A stretch of DNA of 64,000 bases, from positions 5,140,204 through 5,204,203 of the forward strand of contig OY282386.1 in the NCBI GenBank assembly GCA_958295945.1, given 5' to 3'. Made by a program: the position numbers and the translations under genes. Positions 55,085-63,351 of this stretch are shown here, piece by piece. The DNA is from Candidatus Poribacteria bacterium (GTDB taxonomy: Bacteria > Poribacteria > WGA-4E > WGA-3G). The notes beneath the pieces were generated by a model. It made no database searches, was not told the origin of the DNA, and was given only the letters and a program-made list of their open reading frames with translations. Every line of letters starts with the position of its first letter. Positions within the stretch are counted from its first letter, which is position 1.

Positions 55085-56776
55085 TCAATTTTCGTCTGAA
55101 GTGTTTTCAATTTCCACCGTCTCCATTTGACTGTGTTCTCCACATTTCGCTATCGCTTCCCTTGCCTCTAACACCTTGGCTACAACTGTTTTCACATCTT
55201 CCTCATCTACAAACGGAGATAGGATAAATGATTTTAAGGCAACAATCGGTTCTCCATAGGTGGTTTTACGATAGCAGTCAGTTGTGGAGATGAAGACCCC
55301 TCTACCTTCCATCGCCTCAGAATTTACATATTGAAAGATGTCTTTGTTGTAGTCATTATGGGAAAGCAGACTATCTTGATATGTGGCATCCTCAAATTCT
55401 TGACGTTTGATTTCAAAAGTATCCACACCAACTGGATAAGCACGAAAGAGCGTAACAGTCCCGAAATTTCCACGGTTCAGCACTGTTGTGCCTTCATGTC
55501 CTTCAAGATGTTCGCGTAGGAGTTGTGTCATTTCAACGATATGTCCGATAATTGCTTGCAATCCTTTTTCTCCAAACAATTTTAAATTGGCAAGTGCAGC
55601 AAGAGGTCCTGTTCCAGAACGGGAGGTCTCAAGTGTGAACATACCGGGACGATACTGACCAAAGTGATAGAGATATGGCATTTGCTCAGCAGAACGTTTC
55701 AATAAATTGAGATCAGACTGGTCTCTGACGAGGACAAGGCTTGAGATATAAGGTGCGAAACCCGTTTTATGAAAGTCTATGCCAACAGAATCGGCAAGAG
55801 AAAGATGTTGTATCCTCCTGCAAGCCCCTGCTAAAGCGCGAATAGTACGCGGACGGAAACCTAATGGATTCTGCTCAAAATCATAGTTGTTGAATACAGA
55901 CCATGCCCATCCGATCACAGCATCAGCATGAATATGTGGTTGATAGCCAAGCTTGAATTCCTCAACGAGGGTTTCTCTCATGGTGACAATATGCATTAGA
56001 TTGTCCAGACCAAATGCATCGGTTGTGCCTAAAGTGGCGATAATAGCAGCAACCCTTTTGCCATCAGTGAGTGTTTGACGGAGTTCCTGTTCAAGTATCT
56101 CAAGATCGATCTCGTTTTCAAATGTTGTTGGAATAGTTATCAGGTTGTCAGTCCCAATTCCAAGCCAACCCGTTATATTTGAAGCACAGTAGTGTCCCGC
56201 ATCCGACACAAAAACGACAGCATTTTCAGGAGTTCCCTTTTTTATTGTGTCCGGACATGCTTTTTCTAACCCGATTTTCACACCATAGAGAGTCGTTCCA
56301 GTACCACCGAAGGTAAATACACCACCAGAATGTGCAGGATCATAGCCAATCAGCTTTGATGTCATAGATGTGACTTCAACTTCCGCTAATGCGACTAATC
56401 TGCTGGACTCATCCCAACAAAGGTTCGGATTGTATAGAGAGGCAAGAACAACTCCAATGAGACTAGGAATTGTCGTTGGACAAACTACGTTCTGTTGTGT
56501 GCGGGGATGTCCAAAGATAGTCATGCCTTCAAGATAACCCACAAGTTCCTTTGTAACCTCTTGCACTGAGGACATGTTATTCGGTAATGTGGACTTCTTT
56601 CCTTCCTCAAAATCCACAGCGTTGATGTTTCCAAGAAATGGCAAGTGTGTTTTGAGATCATCAACTTGGTCTAAAGCACGCATCATGGAATGTATAAAAT
56701 ATGAGTCATGTATAGTGTTGGAAATAGGTTGGGGAAATGCAAGTTTTATTTTTTCTAATATGTCGCGATATGTCAT
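55085..56776 (-). CDS. Group II pyridoxal-5'-phosphate-dependent decarboxylase
   Basis: 563 residues. Glutamate/tyrosine/aromatic-amino-acid decarboxylase fold: 'GVFTFGGTGTTLYGVKIGLEKA' (phosphate-binding region), 'FVSDAGHYCASNITGWLGIG' (His stacking on PLP), 'HADAVIGWAWSVF' (Asp that contacts PLP nitrogen) and 'GIDFHKTGFAPYISSLVLVRD' with the Schiff-base Lys. Substrate cannot be read; longer forms of this family act on amino acids including glutamate, diaminobutyrate and sulfinoalanine. Stands alone with no visible transporter partner. Confidence 0.88.
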   Translation of the reverse strand: MTYRDILEKIKLAFPQPISNTIHDSYFIHSMMRALDQVDDLKTHLPFLGNINAVDFEEGKKSTLPNNMSSVQEVTKELVGYLEGMTIFGHPRTQQNVVCPTTIPSLIGVVLASLYNPNLCWDESSRLVALAEVEVTSMTSKLIGYDPAHSGGVFTFGGTGTTLYGVKIGLEKACPDTIKKGTPENAVVFVSDAGHYCASNITGWLGIGTDNLITIPTTFENEIDLEILEQELRQTLTDGKRVAAIIATLGTTDAFGLDNLMHIVTMRETLVEEFKLGYQPHIHADAVIGWAWSVFNNYDFEQNPLGFRPRTIRALAGACRRIQHLSLADSVGIDFHKTGFAPYISSLVLVRDQSDLNLLKRSAEQMPYLYHFGQYRPGMFTLETSRSGTGPLAALANLKLFGEKGLQAIIGHIVEMTQLLREHLEGHEGTTVLNRGNFGTVTLFRAYPVGVDTFEIKRQEFEDATYQDSLLSHNDYNKDIFQYVNSEAMEGRGVFISTTDCYRKTTYGEPIVALKSFILSPFVDEEDVKTVVAKVLEAREAIAKCGEHSQMETVEIENTSDEN

Positions 56777-57033
56777 CTTTTGTCCTTAAGTGATGTGTAT
56801 TTTGTTCTGGCAGAAATTATGTGTTTTTTGGTTAGGGTTCGATTTGAAAGATGTATCGGTATTGCTATTTAGAATGGTAATTCTTTATATATGTTTCTTC
56901 AAATCACATGGAACTTGGTCTAACTGTTCATTATATGATATACATATCACGTAGGTCTATTACTATTCTCAAGAGAGAATTCTTGGTATTGATTGATGTA
57001 GGAACTTGTCTTGCTTTCGGAGAGATAGTTTAT

Positions 57034-57291
57034 TTATTTGTATACTGATGAACGGTTTTCAATTTGAGAAACTGTTATTTGTTGAGTTTGCCTGTTGAAA
57101 GTATAGATAATTCGATAATTTCCTGATTTTAACCTATACTTTCCCTTAAATCGACCCTGCAATGCTTTATGAGAGCAGACATCACAATTTGCACATAACC
57201 ATCTGAGCTTATTGACAATTTTATTTTGGAGTTTGGCATTTAGACGCTGTAATTCTCTTTCTGCATTTGGAGTCAATATCAATTCATACAT
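57034..57291 (-). CDS. RelE/ParE-family toxin
   Basis: 85 residues of the RelE/ParE fold: 'YELILTPNAERELQRLNAKLQNKIVNKLRWL' (strand and two helices), 'ALQGRFKGKYRLKSGNYRIIYTFNRQTQQITVSQIENRSSVYK' with the basic strands and terminal tail that in RelE cleave mRNA on the ribosome. 'YRLKSGNYRIIY' is the family's most recognisable segment. Five bases separate it from the preceding 384-residue gene, whose C-terminus looks antitoxin-like; no separate small antitoxin gene is present. It may inhibit translation or gyrase. Confidence 0.88.
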   Translation of the reverse strand: MYELILTPNAERELQRLNAKLQNKIVNKLRWLCANCDVCSHKALQGRFKGKYRLKSGNYRIIYTFNRQTQQITVSQIENRSSVYK

Positions 57292-57296
57292 TTCAA

Positions 57297-58451
57297 CTAG
57301 GTTCCTAACCTCTTGACTACCTCCTTGAGAGTAAGCATTTTACCACCAGACTTAATATATTCATCTTCACGCTCCAACTGTTCTACAAAATCTGAACGCA
57401 ACTCCAATCCATCATCTGGATCATAATCATAGTTCTCAAGGAATAGTTCCAATTCCAAAAAGCAAACGAAAAACTCGCAAAATTCGGATCGAAGTTTCGT
57501 AGGATTATTGGTAGAGTTCTCACTTTCCATTAACTTAACTAAACGTTCTCTTGATACAAAAATACCCCAATTTCCAATTATGTTTACAAATGTTCGGAAT
57601 TCATCGTGAGATAAATCCGAAACCTTAATTTCTGGCTGTGGGTCTTGTTCTATCAAAATACCCATCCTCTGCGCTTCGCGTCCTAATGTTGAACATCTAC
57701 GCTGTGCTTCAACTGCAGACACACGATGTCTTAGATGAAAAAAGTCAGCAGATTCTTGCATGTAGGCAAGTAAGGATTTTTCAAACTCTTCTATTTCTAA
57801 GCCAAGTGCGTAGTAACCGTTAAAGAGTTCTCGAAATTCTTGCTCTAATGCATTGTATGGACTATCCTCAGCAAGAAGCTTGGTTAGTTGTTTTCGCGTC
57901 TTAAATATCTCTCCGTTGACAATGGACGCTATCCATTTGTCAAATTGTGCCGAATGAATAATATTTCCCTCCATTTCAATTTCCGAAGTTGTATCCGTTG
58001 ATTGCGATCTATTATATAAAATGTCAAAATTGTTATAGTGGTCCATAGATAACTGCACGATGCTTTCAGTAAATTCATGATCTGACTTTAAAGATTCCAC
58101 CTTATCGTTTCCTACAATTAAAATATCTGCTCTACTAATTGTTTTCAGGTAATACGCTAAATCTGGAATATCCTCTGAGAATGTATAATTCTGTGATATA
58201 CGACACTGAACGACTCGATCTCTTCTGTTCTTGAAAAGTTCCTCTACCCAAATTTGCAATCTCTGTCGATACTTAGTTGGAAGTTGCTCAATCTGTTTAA
58301 AGATAGATTCTTGTAATTCATTTCCCGAATCAACAACTATTACACCGTTTGCTTCAATCTTGTTCAAGCAATCTGTTACATTGGTTCCATAGATTGGATT
58401 GAAATAATCACTATTAAAGGTAGTGGAATCAAAAACTGCACTAATTGGCAT
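57297..58451 (-). CDS. Unknown protein with duplicated module, between ATPase and RelE toxin
   Basis: 384 residues that I do not recognise as a family. Residues 1-145 form an alpha/beta part with 'AVFDSTTF' (Asp8), 'VIVVDSGNELQESI' and 'RADILIVGNDKVESL' (Asp116), which has a PIN-nuclease-like look (D...E...D with IV-x-x-D-K), an inference. Residues about 170-224 and 285-341 are two copies of one module ('F..W/V...I.N..IF..R..L.KL......L..EF.E.F.....LE'). The last 30 ('VEQLEREDEYIKSGGKMLTLKEVVKRLG') resemble the C-terminus of a type II antitoxin and lie directly before the RelE gene. The ATPase gene is 16 bases upstream. AGGAG precedes ATG 58451. Confidence 0.75.
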   Translation of the reverse strand: MPISAVFDSTTFNSDYFNPIYGTNVTDCLNKIEANGVIVVDSGNELQESIFKQIEQLPTKYRQRLQIWVEELFKNRRDRVVQCRISQNYTFSEDIPDLAYYLKTISRADILIVGNDKVESLKSDHEFTESIVQLSMDHYNNFDILYNRSQSTDTTSEIEMEGNIIHSAQFDKWIASIVNGEIFKTRKQLTKLLAEDSPYNALEQEFRELFNGYYALGLEIEEFEKSLLAYMQESADFFHLRHRVSAVEAQRRCSTLGREAQRMGILIEQDPQPEIKVSDLSHDEFRTFVNIIGNWGIFVSRERLVKLMESENSTNNPTKLRSEFCEFFVCFLELELFLENYDYDPDDGLELRSDFVEQLEREDEYIKSGGKMLTLKEVVKRLGT

Positions 58452-58467
58452 AATGCAACTCCTTACT

Positions 58468-60015
58468 TTATCTCAATTCCCGCAGTCGTTCTGGGAAAAA
58501 TCCGTTGGGCCAGTCATCAATAAAATCGCCATCTTCGTCCAGTCGCAGACGTTCCGCATTAGCACCTTCAGGTCCACGGCTAACATATATCACAGATACA
58601 TCTTCAGGTCTTATCTGTTTTTTTCGCACTAAACGTTGTAAACGTAAGATAAGATGTTCACTATGAGTTTCAATAATAAATTGGTTTTGGCGAGGTTTTT
58701 GAATGGCTTCAGCTAATAGATCACCAAGATCGGCTTGTAATCTTGGATGTACGTGTACCTCAGGTTGTTCAATTGAGATAATTTGTTTCTCTGAAACCAA
58801 ACTCTGAACAATAAACGGAAGGAGTTGACTGATACCAAAACCCACATCTAACAGTGCAACATCTACATTATTTTTTCGTCGTTTATCTAGAAGTCTTATT
58901 TCAAACATTTCTCGTGAACTTCCTCCTAATGATTTCACTTCTAACTCATAACCGATGTCTAGTCGTTTTAGCCACTTATTTGTGTCTTTCACCAATTCAG
59001 GTTGACGAAAAAACAGATCAGGAAGAAGTTCTCCCTTGAATCCAACATTTTCATGATCTGTGCCACTGAAAATATATGCTCTTTCTGGGAGTCTTCGAAC
59101 TGGACTCATTGGAAAAAGTTGCGCTAAAGTCTGTTTCAATGCCTCACCCGCTATTATTGCTAATGCGCTCGTAGGTGATTGACCGTAAAGAGTGGAGGTA
59201 GATGGATATAATAATACAGGAAAAAAAACATGTACTGCTAGTAAAATTTCACGATCTGTCTCTTCCTTGTGCATCTTGGAAATGTAGGTTTCTAAATCAA
59301 AATCTGGGGATAATAAAAACTCAATATAATCCTTTAAAACATTAAGAGAATCGTTAGGAAAGGTATGATCTTTCTGGATATCGTCTCTCAAGATGTTTTC
59401 TGCTCTGTATTCCAATAATTGAATTAAAGCATCCTTCCTTTCTTTGGTGTGTCTAAACAGTGGTTCCCAGAACTCAGGTTCTTGTGTCAACCATACACAC
59501 TTCGCCATGGTTACTTGTGTAGGGGAACGTGGATATTCAGTAAAATTCATTCTTATATTTTTCTCTTGACCTAACATCTTGAATTTGGCAATACACTTAG
59601 AGGATTTTCCATCGTAAATTCCGATTTGATCTAAATGAATCTTTTCCTCAAGCATTGGTCTCTTAAATGTCAATTCAATACCTATCAAGTTACTAATGTA
59701 CATTTGTGCTGGTGGATAGTCTATATCTAATGCGTCTGTCGCCATTTCAATACGAATCGAAAGTGTCCGTTCAAGGTCATGGTCGAAAAGTAATTCTTGA
59801 AAGGACCCAAAATCAACAATACCATTTTCGGATTGGCGAAGTGACAACACATCCATATCAGGACTCTCCAGCGTCTGCTTAAGCAGATTAAGTGATTGTA
59901 AGATTGAACTCTTTCCCGCACTGTTTTCACCAAAAATTAGCGTTATAGGAGCAAACGGAATGTGTGCTCGTTTCCCGAATGCTTTGAAATTCTCTAATTC
60001 AAGTGAGTGAATCAT
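58468..60015 (-). CDS. SMC-like AAA ATPase (DUF3696 / OLD-like)
   Basis: 515 residues. 'LELENFKAFGKRAHIPFAPITLIFGENSAGKSSILQSLNLLKQ' holds the Walker A site (GENSAGKSS, about 29-37). Near the C-terminus are 'VGFGISQLLPFIVQSL' (signature region), 'IISIEQPEVHVHPRLQADLGDLL' (Walker B) and 'FIIETHSEHLILRLQRLV' (switch His), then 'EDVSVIYVSRGPEGANAERLRLDEDGDF', typical of DUF3696 ATPases. Related ATPases drive several anti-phage systems with an adjacent effector. It starts a three-gene operon with the unknown protein and the RelE toxin. AGGAG eight bases before ATG 60015. Confidence 0.9.
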   Translation of the reverse strand: MIHSLELENFKAFGKRAHIPFAPITLIFGENSAGKSSILQSLNLLKQTLESPDMDVLSLRQSENGIVDFGSFQELLFDHDLERTLSIRIEMATDALDIDYPPAQMYISNLIGIELTFKRPMLEEKIHLDQIGIYDGKSSKCIAKFKMLGQEKNIRMNFTEYPRSPTQVTMAKCVWLTQEPEFWEPLFRHTKERKDALIQLLEYRAENILRDDIQKDHTFPNDSLNVLKDYIEFLLSPDFDLETYISKMHKEETDREILLAVHVFFPVLLYPSTSTLYGQSPTSALAIIAGEALKQTLAQLFPMSPVRRLPERAYIFSGTDHENVGFKGELLPDLFFRQPELVKDTNKWLKRLDIGYELEVKSLGGSSREMFEIRLLDKRRKNNVDVALLDVGFGISQLLPFIVQSLVSEKQIISIEQPEVHVHPRLQADLGDLLAEAIQKPRQNQFIIETHSEHLILRLQRLVRKKQIRPEDVSVIYVSRGPEGANAERLRLDEDGDFIDDWPNGFFPERLRELR

Positions 60016-60133
60016 CAGATTTCTCCTATGTACATTCCTTTAGAGATTGTTCTTTCACATAACTATAGTATAGCATGATATATTGTTCTTTTGTAGAATA
60101 AAACTGTATAGGTAAGATTAGTTCAATTACAGA

Positions 60134-61621
60134 TTATAGGTAGGAAATCGCCCTTTGAATCCGCTTCAAAACTTCATCTCTACCGAGCAGCACAACAATA
60201 TCAAAAAGACTCGGACCAAACGATGTGCCTGTCAACGCAATCCGCATCGCCTGCATGGCTGCAACGCGTTTGATGTCGTTTTCATCCGTATATTGCCAAA
60301 CAGCAGATTCTATGGTTTCAAGGTCAAACGTTGAGATGTCATCCAAAATCTGCTTGAGATTTGTAAGGATTTCACGAGTTTTCTGCTTCTTCTCGTCTGA
60401 ACCACCCCACCATTTCTTAACTGCTTTCGACTCATATTCAAAATCATCCAAAAAGAAGAAACGTGTCTGCGGGAGGATGTCCTGAAACGTTGTCAGACGT
60501 TCACCCACGGCATCAACTATTTTCTCAAGCAAATCTCGTTCTGTATCGGAATCCACCAAACCTTCCTGTTCCCAGAAAGGCATCACTGCATCTGTGCGTG
60601 CAGAAACATCCAACTGAATAATGTAATGTGAATTGAGCCATTCCAACTTCTTAATATCAAACACACTACCACTCTTACCAACCCGTGCAAGGTCAAACTT
60701 ATCTATCAGTTCATCCACTGAGAAGATTTCCTGTTTGTCATCGTAAGACCAACCGAGTCTGGCAACGAAATTCAGCATAGCTTCGGGGAGATACCCTTGT
60801 TCACGGTATCGGTTAACAGCGACAAGGTCACCGTGATGCCTTTTACTGAGTTTTCTACCAGTATCGTCAAGTACAAGTGGTATATGGGCAAATTGAGGCA
60901 GGTCTAAACCGAGAGCATTCGCAATTGCAATCTGTTTCGGTGTGTTATTGAGATGTTCTGTTCCCCTGATAACGTGCGTTATCCGCATCTCTGCATCGTC
61001 AATAATAGAGGTGAGATTATAATTTGGCATTCCATTGGATCGGACAATTACCTCATCCTCAAGGGTGGCAGGATCAATATTACGTGAACCGAGAATTAGG
61101 TCATCAACACGGATTGGCATATCAGGCATTCTAATACGGACGGTCGGTTTTCTACCATCTGCGATGAAACTTTCTATCTTTTCACGTGTAAGTTCACGGC
61201 ATCTACCATCATAAGAACGAGTAGATTTAGCAGCACGTGCTTCTGTGCGGATCTCTTCCAACTCGTCGGGTGTACAATAACAACGGTAGGCATTACCACT
61301 CTCAAGTAGTTGCGCTACATATTTTTCATAAATGTCTTTGCGTTCGGATTGCACATAAGGACCATAAGGACCGCCAATATCACCACCTTCGTCCCACTTC
61401 AAACCCAACCATTTCATTGCGGAATAGATCTCTTGCATAGATTCATCTGTAGAACGCTCCGCATCTGTATCATCAATCCGAAGTATAAATTGTCCCTTAT
61501 GATGTTTTGCAAATAGCCAATTAAACAACGCTGTCCTGGCACCGCCAATATGTAAGAAACCTGTTGGAGAGGGTGCCATGCGAACTCTCACTGGGTTCTG
61601 TGGAACTGATGTATCGTTCAT
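60134..61621 (-). CDS. gltX: Glutamyl-tRNA synthetase
   Basis: 495 residues. Class I synthetase with '[28 protein letters not shown]' (HIGH-like), 'DDTDAERST', '[35 protein letters not shown]', and KMSKS-like 'RKLSKRHGD...'. It charges tRNA-Glu, a gene for which is present at 48500. The start is ATG 61621, whose ATGA overlaps the glnS stop; AAAGGAC lies upstream. The frame is open to 61648 but those nine residues lie inside glnS. Confidence 0.96.
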
Positions 61622-63351
61622 TTCTGTCCTTTCTGGATTTTTGCCCAACTATCTCGTAGTGCAACAGTTCGGTTGAATACCAGTTTATCAGGTGTTGTGT
61701 CTAGATCAATACAAAAATACCCTATTCGCAAGAACTGATATCGACTTTCAGGTGGTGCATCAATGAGACTTGGTTCTATTTTACAGTTATTTAAAATCTG
61801 TAAAGAATCTGGATTTAGAAACTCAATCCAGTCAGTGCCATCCGTTGCGTTTTCGGGTTCGCGTTCCGTAAAGAGCGTGTCATATAATCGCACCTCAGCA
61901 TCAACAGCATGCTCAGTCGAAACCCAGTGCAGTGTACCCCGCACCCGCCGTCCATCTTCAGACCAACCCCCTCGCGTTTCTGGATCATAAGTACAGTGAA
62001 TTGCAACAATTTCACCAGTGTTTTCATCTTTGACAACGCGTTCGCAGGTGATGTAGTATGCATGCTTTAGGCGCACTTCACAGCCAGGAGCAAGTCTATA
62101 GAATTTTTTGGGAGGGTCTTCCATAAAATCATCACGTTCAATATAGATTTCTCTTGAGAATGGAATCTCTCTTGTCCCAGCATTTTCATCTTCCGGATTG
62201 TTATCTGCATCAAGCATCTCTACTTGATCTTCCGGATAATTATCTATGATCACTTTAACCGGATCCAGTACAGCCATAACACGCGGTGCGCGTTGGTTCA
62301 GATCGTTGCGTATAGAGTATTCAAGCTGCCCAACTTCTATGAGATTATCGGCTTTTGACACGCCAATGCGATTACAGAAGTCCCGTATAGATTCTGGAGT
62401 ATAACCACGACGGCGCATGCCAGAAAGCGTTGGTAATCTTGGATCGTCCCACCCATTCACGTGTCCACCTTCAACAAGGATTTTCAGTTTCCTCTTACCA
62501 AGAACTGTATATGTAAGGTTCAGACGCGCAAATTCTATCTGCCGAGGTTGATAAATCTCCAATGATTCCAAAAACCAATCGTATAAAGGACGATGGTCTT
62601 CAAACTGAACATCACATAACGAGTGCGTTACACCTTCAATAGAATCGGATTGTCCGTGTGTGAAATCATAAGTAGGATAGATGCACCAATTCGTTCCGTG
62701 CCTATAGTGAGGGGTACGGAGAACACGATACATCACCGGATCACGCATATTTAGGTTCGGACTTCTCATGTCAATTTTGGCACGGAGCGTCCGAGAACCG
62801 TCTGCAAACTCGCCAGCACGCATACCACGAAACAAGGTCAGATTCTCCTCAACTGTCCGATTTCGATAGGGACTATCTTTGCCTGGAGTTACCAATGTGC
62901 CACGATAATCACGTGTTTCGTCGGGTGTCAAATCGCAGACATACGCTCTATCTTTCTCAATCAGTTTGATGGCATATTCATAGAGTGTCTCAAAATAGTC
63001 CGATGCGTAGAATTCACGATCTTTCCAATCAAATCCAAGCCAATTCACATCGCGTTTGATTGCCTCTACGAATTCATGCTCTTCAGTTATCGGGTTGCTA
63101 TCGTCAAACCGAAGGTTATAAAGACCATCAAAATCTTCAGCAATTCCAAAACTTATACAGATAGCTTTTGCATGTCCAATATGGAGGTAACCACTCGGTT
63201 CCGGTGGAAATCTGGTATGAACTCTTCCATCAAATCTATTGCACGTCATATCTTCTTCTATCGCTTGACGGATAAAGTTTGTGTCAGAGGTGTTCTTGTC
63301 ATTCTCTGTTGTGTTTTTGTTTTTTTTTGAGTCGTGTACCGGATGATTCAT
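61618..63351 (-). CDS. glnS: Glutaminyl-tRNA synthetase
   Basis: 577 residues. Class I, GlnRS type: '[31 protein letters not shown]' (HIGH), '[30 protein letters not shown]', '[40 protein letters not shown]' and '[25 protein letters not shown]', followed by the two beta-barrel anticodon domains. GlnRS charges tRNA-Gln directly, so the organism need not use the amidotransferase route, which is retained by many bacteria. The second signature reads 'TVLGKRKL' where 'VMSKRKL' is usual. A Lys/Asn/Thr-rich 25-residue N-terminal extension precedes the core. First gene of the glnS-gltX pair. Confidence 0.95.

Follow-up and report, generated by a model that had tools for sequence, protein, structure and literature searches.

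A Poribacterial ATPase-Toxin Operon in Which an ATPase-Partner Domain Is Fused to a Putative Antitoxin

A three-gene operon from a sponge-symbiotic member of the Poribacteria encodes an ATPase, a RelE/ParE-superfamily toxin and, between them, a protein that is, on comparison with relatives across the phylum, a fusion of two genes found separately elsewhere. The operon lies in a 64,000-nucleotide stretch of DNA, here called the window. We propose, at even confidence, that it represents an effector-swapped, restriction-linked sentinel in which a nuclease-type effector has been replaced by an antitoxin-caged RelE toxin. The locus addresses an open question, namely how an ordinary toxin-antitoxin (TA) pair becomes a phage-triggered effector. 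One bacterial family still holds the presumed states before (ATPase plus a partner in which a PLD-like half follows an N domain, or N-PLD), midway (N-PLD followed by a TA pair) and after (N-antitoxin fusion plus toxin). The same proposed docking domain is common to both effectors, and a direct laboratory comparison of the ATPase with each of the two cassettes is possible. Two unnamed families are also defined, a two-module antitoxin and a restriction-modification (R-M)-linked ATPase/PLD-like pair.

Organization of the Operon

The operon consists of three intact minus-strand open reading frames, ordered ATPase, middle gene and toxin and separated by gaps of 16 and 5 bases, as the earlier note on this DNA had described them. 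The first encodes a 515-aa ABC/OLD-type ATPase with a DUF3696 tail, a probable sensor (58468..60015); the second encodes the 384-aa fusion of an ATPase-partner N domain to a putative two-module antitoxin (57297..58451); and the third encodes the 85-aa toxin (57034..57291). On the same strand, gltX, the glutamyl-tRNA synthetase gene, is the upstream neighbour (60134..61648) and is conserved there in relatives, while a pyridoxal-dependent decarboxylase gene marks the downstream boundary (55085..56776) and is also found in G039, G040, G042 and G045.

Four other genomes have the same gene order and the same fusion, at 54-57% identity, which is more than chance would give. A pseudogene or assembly artefact can be ruled out, given a fusion common to five genomes and dN/dS values well below 1. 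A scan of the locus for promoters and terminators returned no more than was found in shuffled sequences. In outline, the earlier reading of the trio as a defence- or TA-type operon is supported; that reading did not include the fusion origin or the link to restriction. In Poribacteria, type III R-M, ATPase and TA genes recur behind glnS-gltX, a region that corresponds to window positions 55085-63351.

The Middle Protein Is a Fusion

A search with the middle protein over 85 genomes of the phylum Poribacteria recovered two separate gene sets; the middle protein itself matched no family. Residues ~1-165 correspond to the front half of a ~330-aa partner gene invariably located behind the ATPase, and residues ~165-384 match a ~235-aa gene that is often present in several copies per genome and usually precedes the same RelE toxin. 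The ATPase is carried by 30 genomes; in each of them it is immediately followed by the N part (25 unfused, 5 fused). The earlier note would have doubted its module if homologues of the middle gene occurred mostly without the ATPase; this was found for the C half, whereas the N half never occurs without it (30/30). The N domain probably contacts the ATPase.

The N, or coupling, domain spans residues 1-135 (58047..58451, minus strand) and shares ancestry with the opening half of the ~330-aa N-PLD partner, whose PLD-like second half is missing from the fusion. Over residues 46-135, conservation between fused and unfused proteins is about equal to that among the unfused. The domain is followed by a junction or linker, residues 136-165 (57957..58046, minus strand), with the motif YRDSDFE..RQRY, which is conserved in N-PLD proteins and relaxed here. 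Indeed, block 136-150, which adjoins the lost PLD domain, shows 77% identity among unfused proteins versus 30% among fused ones.

The N-terminus had been described as PIN-like, and the predicted alpha/beta secondary structure of the domain, together with its invariant D8, D41 and D109, would suit an arrangement in which the N domain itself is the effector nuclease and the RelE pair is secondary. We regard this arrangement as very improbable. Neither a Pfam scan of 20 members nor a PDB sequence search returned a PIN match, and hhalign comparison with PIN proteins encoded by the same genome gave a probability of 0.2%; because the N-domain profile is shallow and the models are poor (pLDDT mostly <60), however, these negatives amount to absence of evidence only. 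Searching PDB and BFVD with the structure model of the fusion likewise gave no match at E <= 0.001.

The Antitoxin Half and Its Toxin

The C half is all-helical and comprises two modules, residues 166-262 (57666..57956, minus strand) and 276-370 (57342..57626, minus strand), with an AlphaFold confidence of about 90 over most of residues 170-340. Profile-profile comparison matches the two modules to each other at 99.1% (E 5e-19), so the duplicated central module previously described is borne out. The probable toxin-binding tail, residues 350-384 (57300..57404, minus strand), is suggested by weak matches to PF09720 (Unstab_antitox) in the tails of several C-half homologues.

Gene order points in the same direction. 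Of 81 stand-alone copies of the C gene, at least 56 lie directly upstream of the toxin gene, and most of these extend a few bases into it; toxin sequence is kept in nine further copies, and many copies lie far from any ATPase. Because the stand-alone C gene directly precedes the same RelE/ParE toxin elsewhere, the C half is read as the antitoxin of this toxin, a role that it very probably fills. The antitoxin-toxin adjacency is thus conserved as a pair, as in type II TA systems, with the antitoxin of the window fused to the N domain. An antitoxin-like C-terminus had been noted before, and gene order and the weak PF09720 matches now support it; the further suggestion that the antidote resides in the middle protein is probable, since the C half corresponds to the gene that precedes the toxin elsewhere.

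The C family was found in Poribacteria only, with its distribution outside the phylum assessed in viral contigs, plasmids and phages and with patterns derived from Poribacteria sequences. All 80 of the middle-protein relatives listed in named genomes are poribacterial, and searches of viral contigs and plasmids with the middle, C or N-PLD protein found no relatives. Two variations on the antitoxin-toxin pair were observed. In one locus it is present in two tandem copies, the second of which has a degenerate-looking toxin (L072:3735-5895), and in G029 the N-PLD gene and the pair are separated by an inserted SoFic-like Fic protein (L044:6322-7419).

The toxin matches ParE_toxin (PF05016) over the cut-off (3.3e-7), which places it in the RelE/ParE superfamily, and matches solved RelE toxins by sequence; a match to the NCBIfam model RelE_StbE falls below the cut-off of that model. 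Its earlier designation as RelE-type therefore stands.

Whether this toxin is active bears on a second alternative, in which the locus has lost its PLD-like effector, its toxin has little or no activity, and C persists as a structural component or shields the cell from related toxins. The window toxin indeed carries an H79N substitution, that of G071 has further changes and is degenerate, and several loci of the form ATPase-(N-PLD)-C keep C with no toxin. The family-conserved R60, R80 and Y84 are nonetheless kept in the window toxin, and toxin dN/dS between fused loci is about 0.15-0.39, so that we consider a dead toxin improbable. Toxin retention also differs with the fusion: the toxin is kept in 5/5 fused loci versus 4/11 judgeable ATPase-(N-PLD)-C loci (hypergeometric p 0.029, a test that ignores kinship; G070, whose locus ends at a contig edge, was set aside). 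This difference supports the proposed caging of the toxin. The loss of the toxin from many ATPase-(N-PLD)-C loci that have kept C suggests, in addition, that C may do more than neutralise.

Origin and Exchange of the Fused Cassette

Phylogenetic analysis places the fused N domains in one clade (100/100 support). Every C gene located next to an N-PLD gene belongs to one clade (100/99), and the fused C domains are nested within it; a single fused clade for them is not rejected (p 0.26). On these trees, the fusion arose once and has persisted to ~55% identity. The position of the fused C domains among N-PLD-adjacent C genes points to the neighbouring gene as the donor and, together with the single clade of fused N domains, to a likely path. 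In the ancestral form, an ABC-type ATPase whose sensor region is hypervariable would have had a partner in which a PLD-like effector domain follows the N domain; a RelE TA pair would have inserted downstream of the partner gene, after which a deletion would have removed the PLD-like domain and joined the N domain of the partner to the antitoxin.

The ATPases of the five fused loci, by contrast with their N domains, are scattered, and a clade is rejected (AU p 2e-108; 6e-7 with the conserved lobes only), so the fused cassette has passed between unrelated ATPase alleles. The ATPase most similar to that of the window, 75% identical, belongs to G039 of the same genus; G039 shares the gltX-decarboxylase site with the window, yet has N-PLD behind its ATPase. 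dN/dS is about 0.1-0.45 for N, C and toxin, with pairs involving the window near saturation, and by this measure the cassette is under purifying selection in all its parts.

These patterns bear on a third alternative, under which the ATPase and N domain retain an independent function, C and RelE form a selfish TA pair that was fused by chance, and the toxin is free of ATPase control and only makes loss of the locus costly. C-toxin pairs do stand alone in many contexts and are also found unfused behind N-PLD genes, as such a passenger would be. However, the fusion cost the partner its PLD-like domain, yet the ATPase and N domain persist under constraint, and the cassette moved as a unit between ATPase alleles with its toxin kept in every fused locus. 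We therefore consider a selfish passenger unlikely and favour the caged-toxin reading.

The ATPase and Its Restriction-Modification Setting

The ATPase matches AAA_15 in Pfam at 1.5e-28, AAA_21 over the cut-off and DUF3696 just over it (7.5e-5). Walker A (GENSAGKSS) and Walker B/D-loop (IISIEQPEVHVHPRLQADL) motifs were read directly from the sequence, and with the DUF3696 C-terminus they place the protein among the ABC/OLD-type ATPases with DUF3696. Across the window and 29 relatives, the ends of the protein show 83-91% mean identity, compared with 39-44% for a hypervariable middle between the conserved lobes (residues ~150-300; 59116-59568, minus strand); as a yardstick, gltX identity among the relatives of the window is 78-85%. 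Such a pattern would fit a sensor under diversifying pressure. The suggestion that the ATPase acts as the sensor is thus plausible, given this variable middle and the R-M neighbours of its relatives. Similar alleles of the hypervariable region were also found across genera.

Among the 30 genomes, a type III methyltransferase gene lies beside the ATPase-partner pair in 22 and a full-length type III helicase/restriction subunit in 17. Further afield, the pair lies behind type I R-M genes on Methylocella and Vibrio plasmids and behind M/S-annotated genes in Azotobacter, and the Deinococcus pair is without R-M genes. The window locus has no R-M genes, and its genome yielded no type III helicase relative, so a role in guarding R-M cannot be local here. 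Loci of G039, G040, G042, G045, G074, G079 and G084 likewise have no R-M genes.

A Proposed Mechanism

In the mechanism we propose, the N domain would dock the fusion on the ATPase while the antitoxin half keeps the RelE toxin inactive. The ATPase may be triggered by a phage protein, an anti-restriction protein or a DNA signal, upon which the complex would change or the fusion would be lost, freeing the toxin. Freed toxin would then cut mRNA at ribosomes, and growth would stop. That the toxin is an ATPase-controlled effector is, in our estimate, an evenly balanced proposition, and a phage or anti-restriction trigger is a shade less probable than that. With similar reserve, we tentatively suggest that phage-sensing ATPases possess an exchangeable effector slot, into which a TA pair was here domesticated by fusing its antitoxin to the docking domain in place of a PLD-like nuclease.

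Comparison With Known Systems

PrrC/RloC-type guards are accessory effectors embedded in R-M operons, and in this respect the loci of relatives with neighbouring R-M genes may resemble them. The window operon differs in having no anticodon nuclease and in encoding ATPase and partner as separate genes.

The proposed mechanism would work like that of PARIS, in which AriA, an ABC ATPase, retains the toxin AriB and releases it on sensing an anti-restriction protein (PMC11455837). The operon shares with PARIS an ABC ATPase of the same broad class and would share a translation-directed toxin and a link to anti-restriction. In PARIS, however, AriB is a Toprim effector, whereas the window operon would join toxin and ATPase through an adaptor-antitoxin fusion; membership in PARIS was rejected, since the ATPase is AriA-like but no Toprim/DUF4435 gene is present in the operon.

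The best matches of the ATPase in PADLOC are to the candidate systems HEC-03 (HEC-03B, 2e-56), NsnB (4e-56) and PDC-M55 (PDC-M55A, 2e-53), followed by AriA (6e-31). Literature searches on NsnB and on DUF3696 yielded nothing relevant. None of the PADLOC partner models was matched by the middle protein or by N-PLD proteins. Membership in HEC-03 was accordingly rejected, as HEC-03B was matched but HEC-03A was not; the HEC-03A partner, which accompanies an RNA ligase on an Azotobacter plasmid, is unrelated to N-PLD or to the fusion.

Type II RelE/ParE systems with PF09720-type antitoxins share the toxin family, the antitoxin-toxin order and, weakly, the tail seen in homologues of the C half. The PF09720 module, however, covers ~54 positions, whereas the putative C antitoxin has ~235 aa in two repeated helical modules and was found here in Poribacteria only; unlike PF09720-type antitoxins, that of the window is also fused to an ATPase-partner domain.

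The Unfused Partner and Distant Relatives

The C-terminal half of the unfused partners matches MIT_C PLD weakly, in 8/15 members with a best E of 0.0017, below the curated cut-off, and the structure model of the partner is poor (pLDDT 50). On plasmids of Methylocella, Vibrio, Azotobacter and Deinococcus, a homologous ATPase is followed by a distant partner protein of ~300 aa. These partners align with the C half of N-PLD (hhalign 94%, E 1.2e-7) and share the motif FHARYL, which strengthens the PLD-like reading of the second half; no likeness was detectable between the front halves. The PLD-like domain is read as a probable nuclease. The ~300-aa PLD-like protein of these pairs with DUF3696-type ATPases had no match in PADLOC, and the Methylocella partner protein had none in phages.

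Several related arrangements were observed. Pairs of an ATPase with a ~300-aa PLD-like protein are located at L215:5986-8591, L218:4526-6882, L217:4277-6891 and L216:4022-6897. In G043 (L059:2651-9983), the N-PLD open reading frame is just 195 aa long with PLD sequence continuing behind it, possibly a broken copy, and the gene order differs, with both type III R-M genes positioned downstream. On Azotobacter, Rhodococcus and Aeromonas plasmids, a conserved trio of a DUF3696 ATPase, a ~177-aa protein and an RNA ligase was found (L212:6001-8619, L213:5989-8551 and L214:6001-8629), in which the ~177-aa protein of L212 is HEC-03A.
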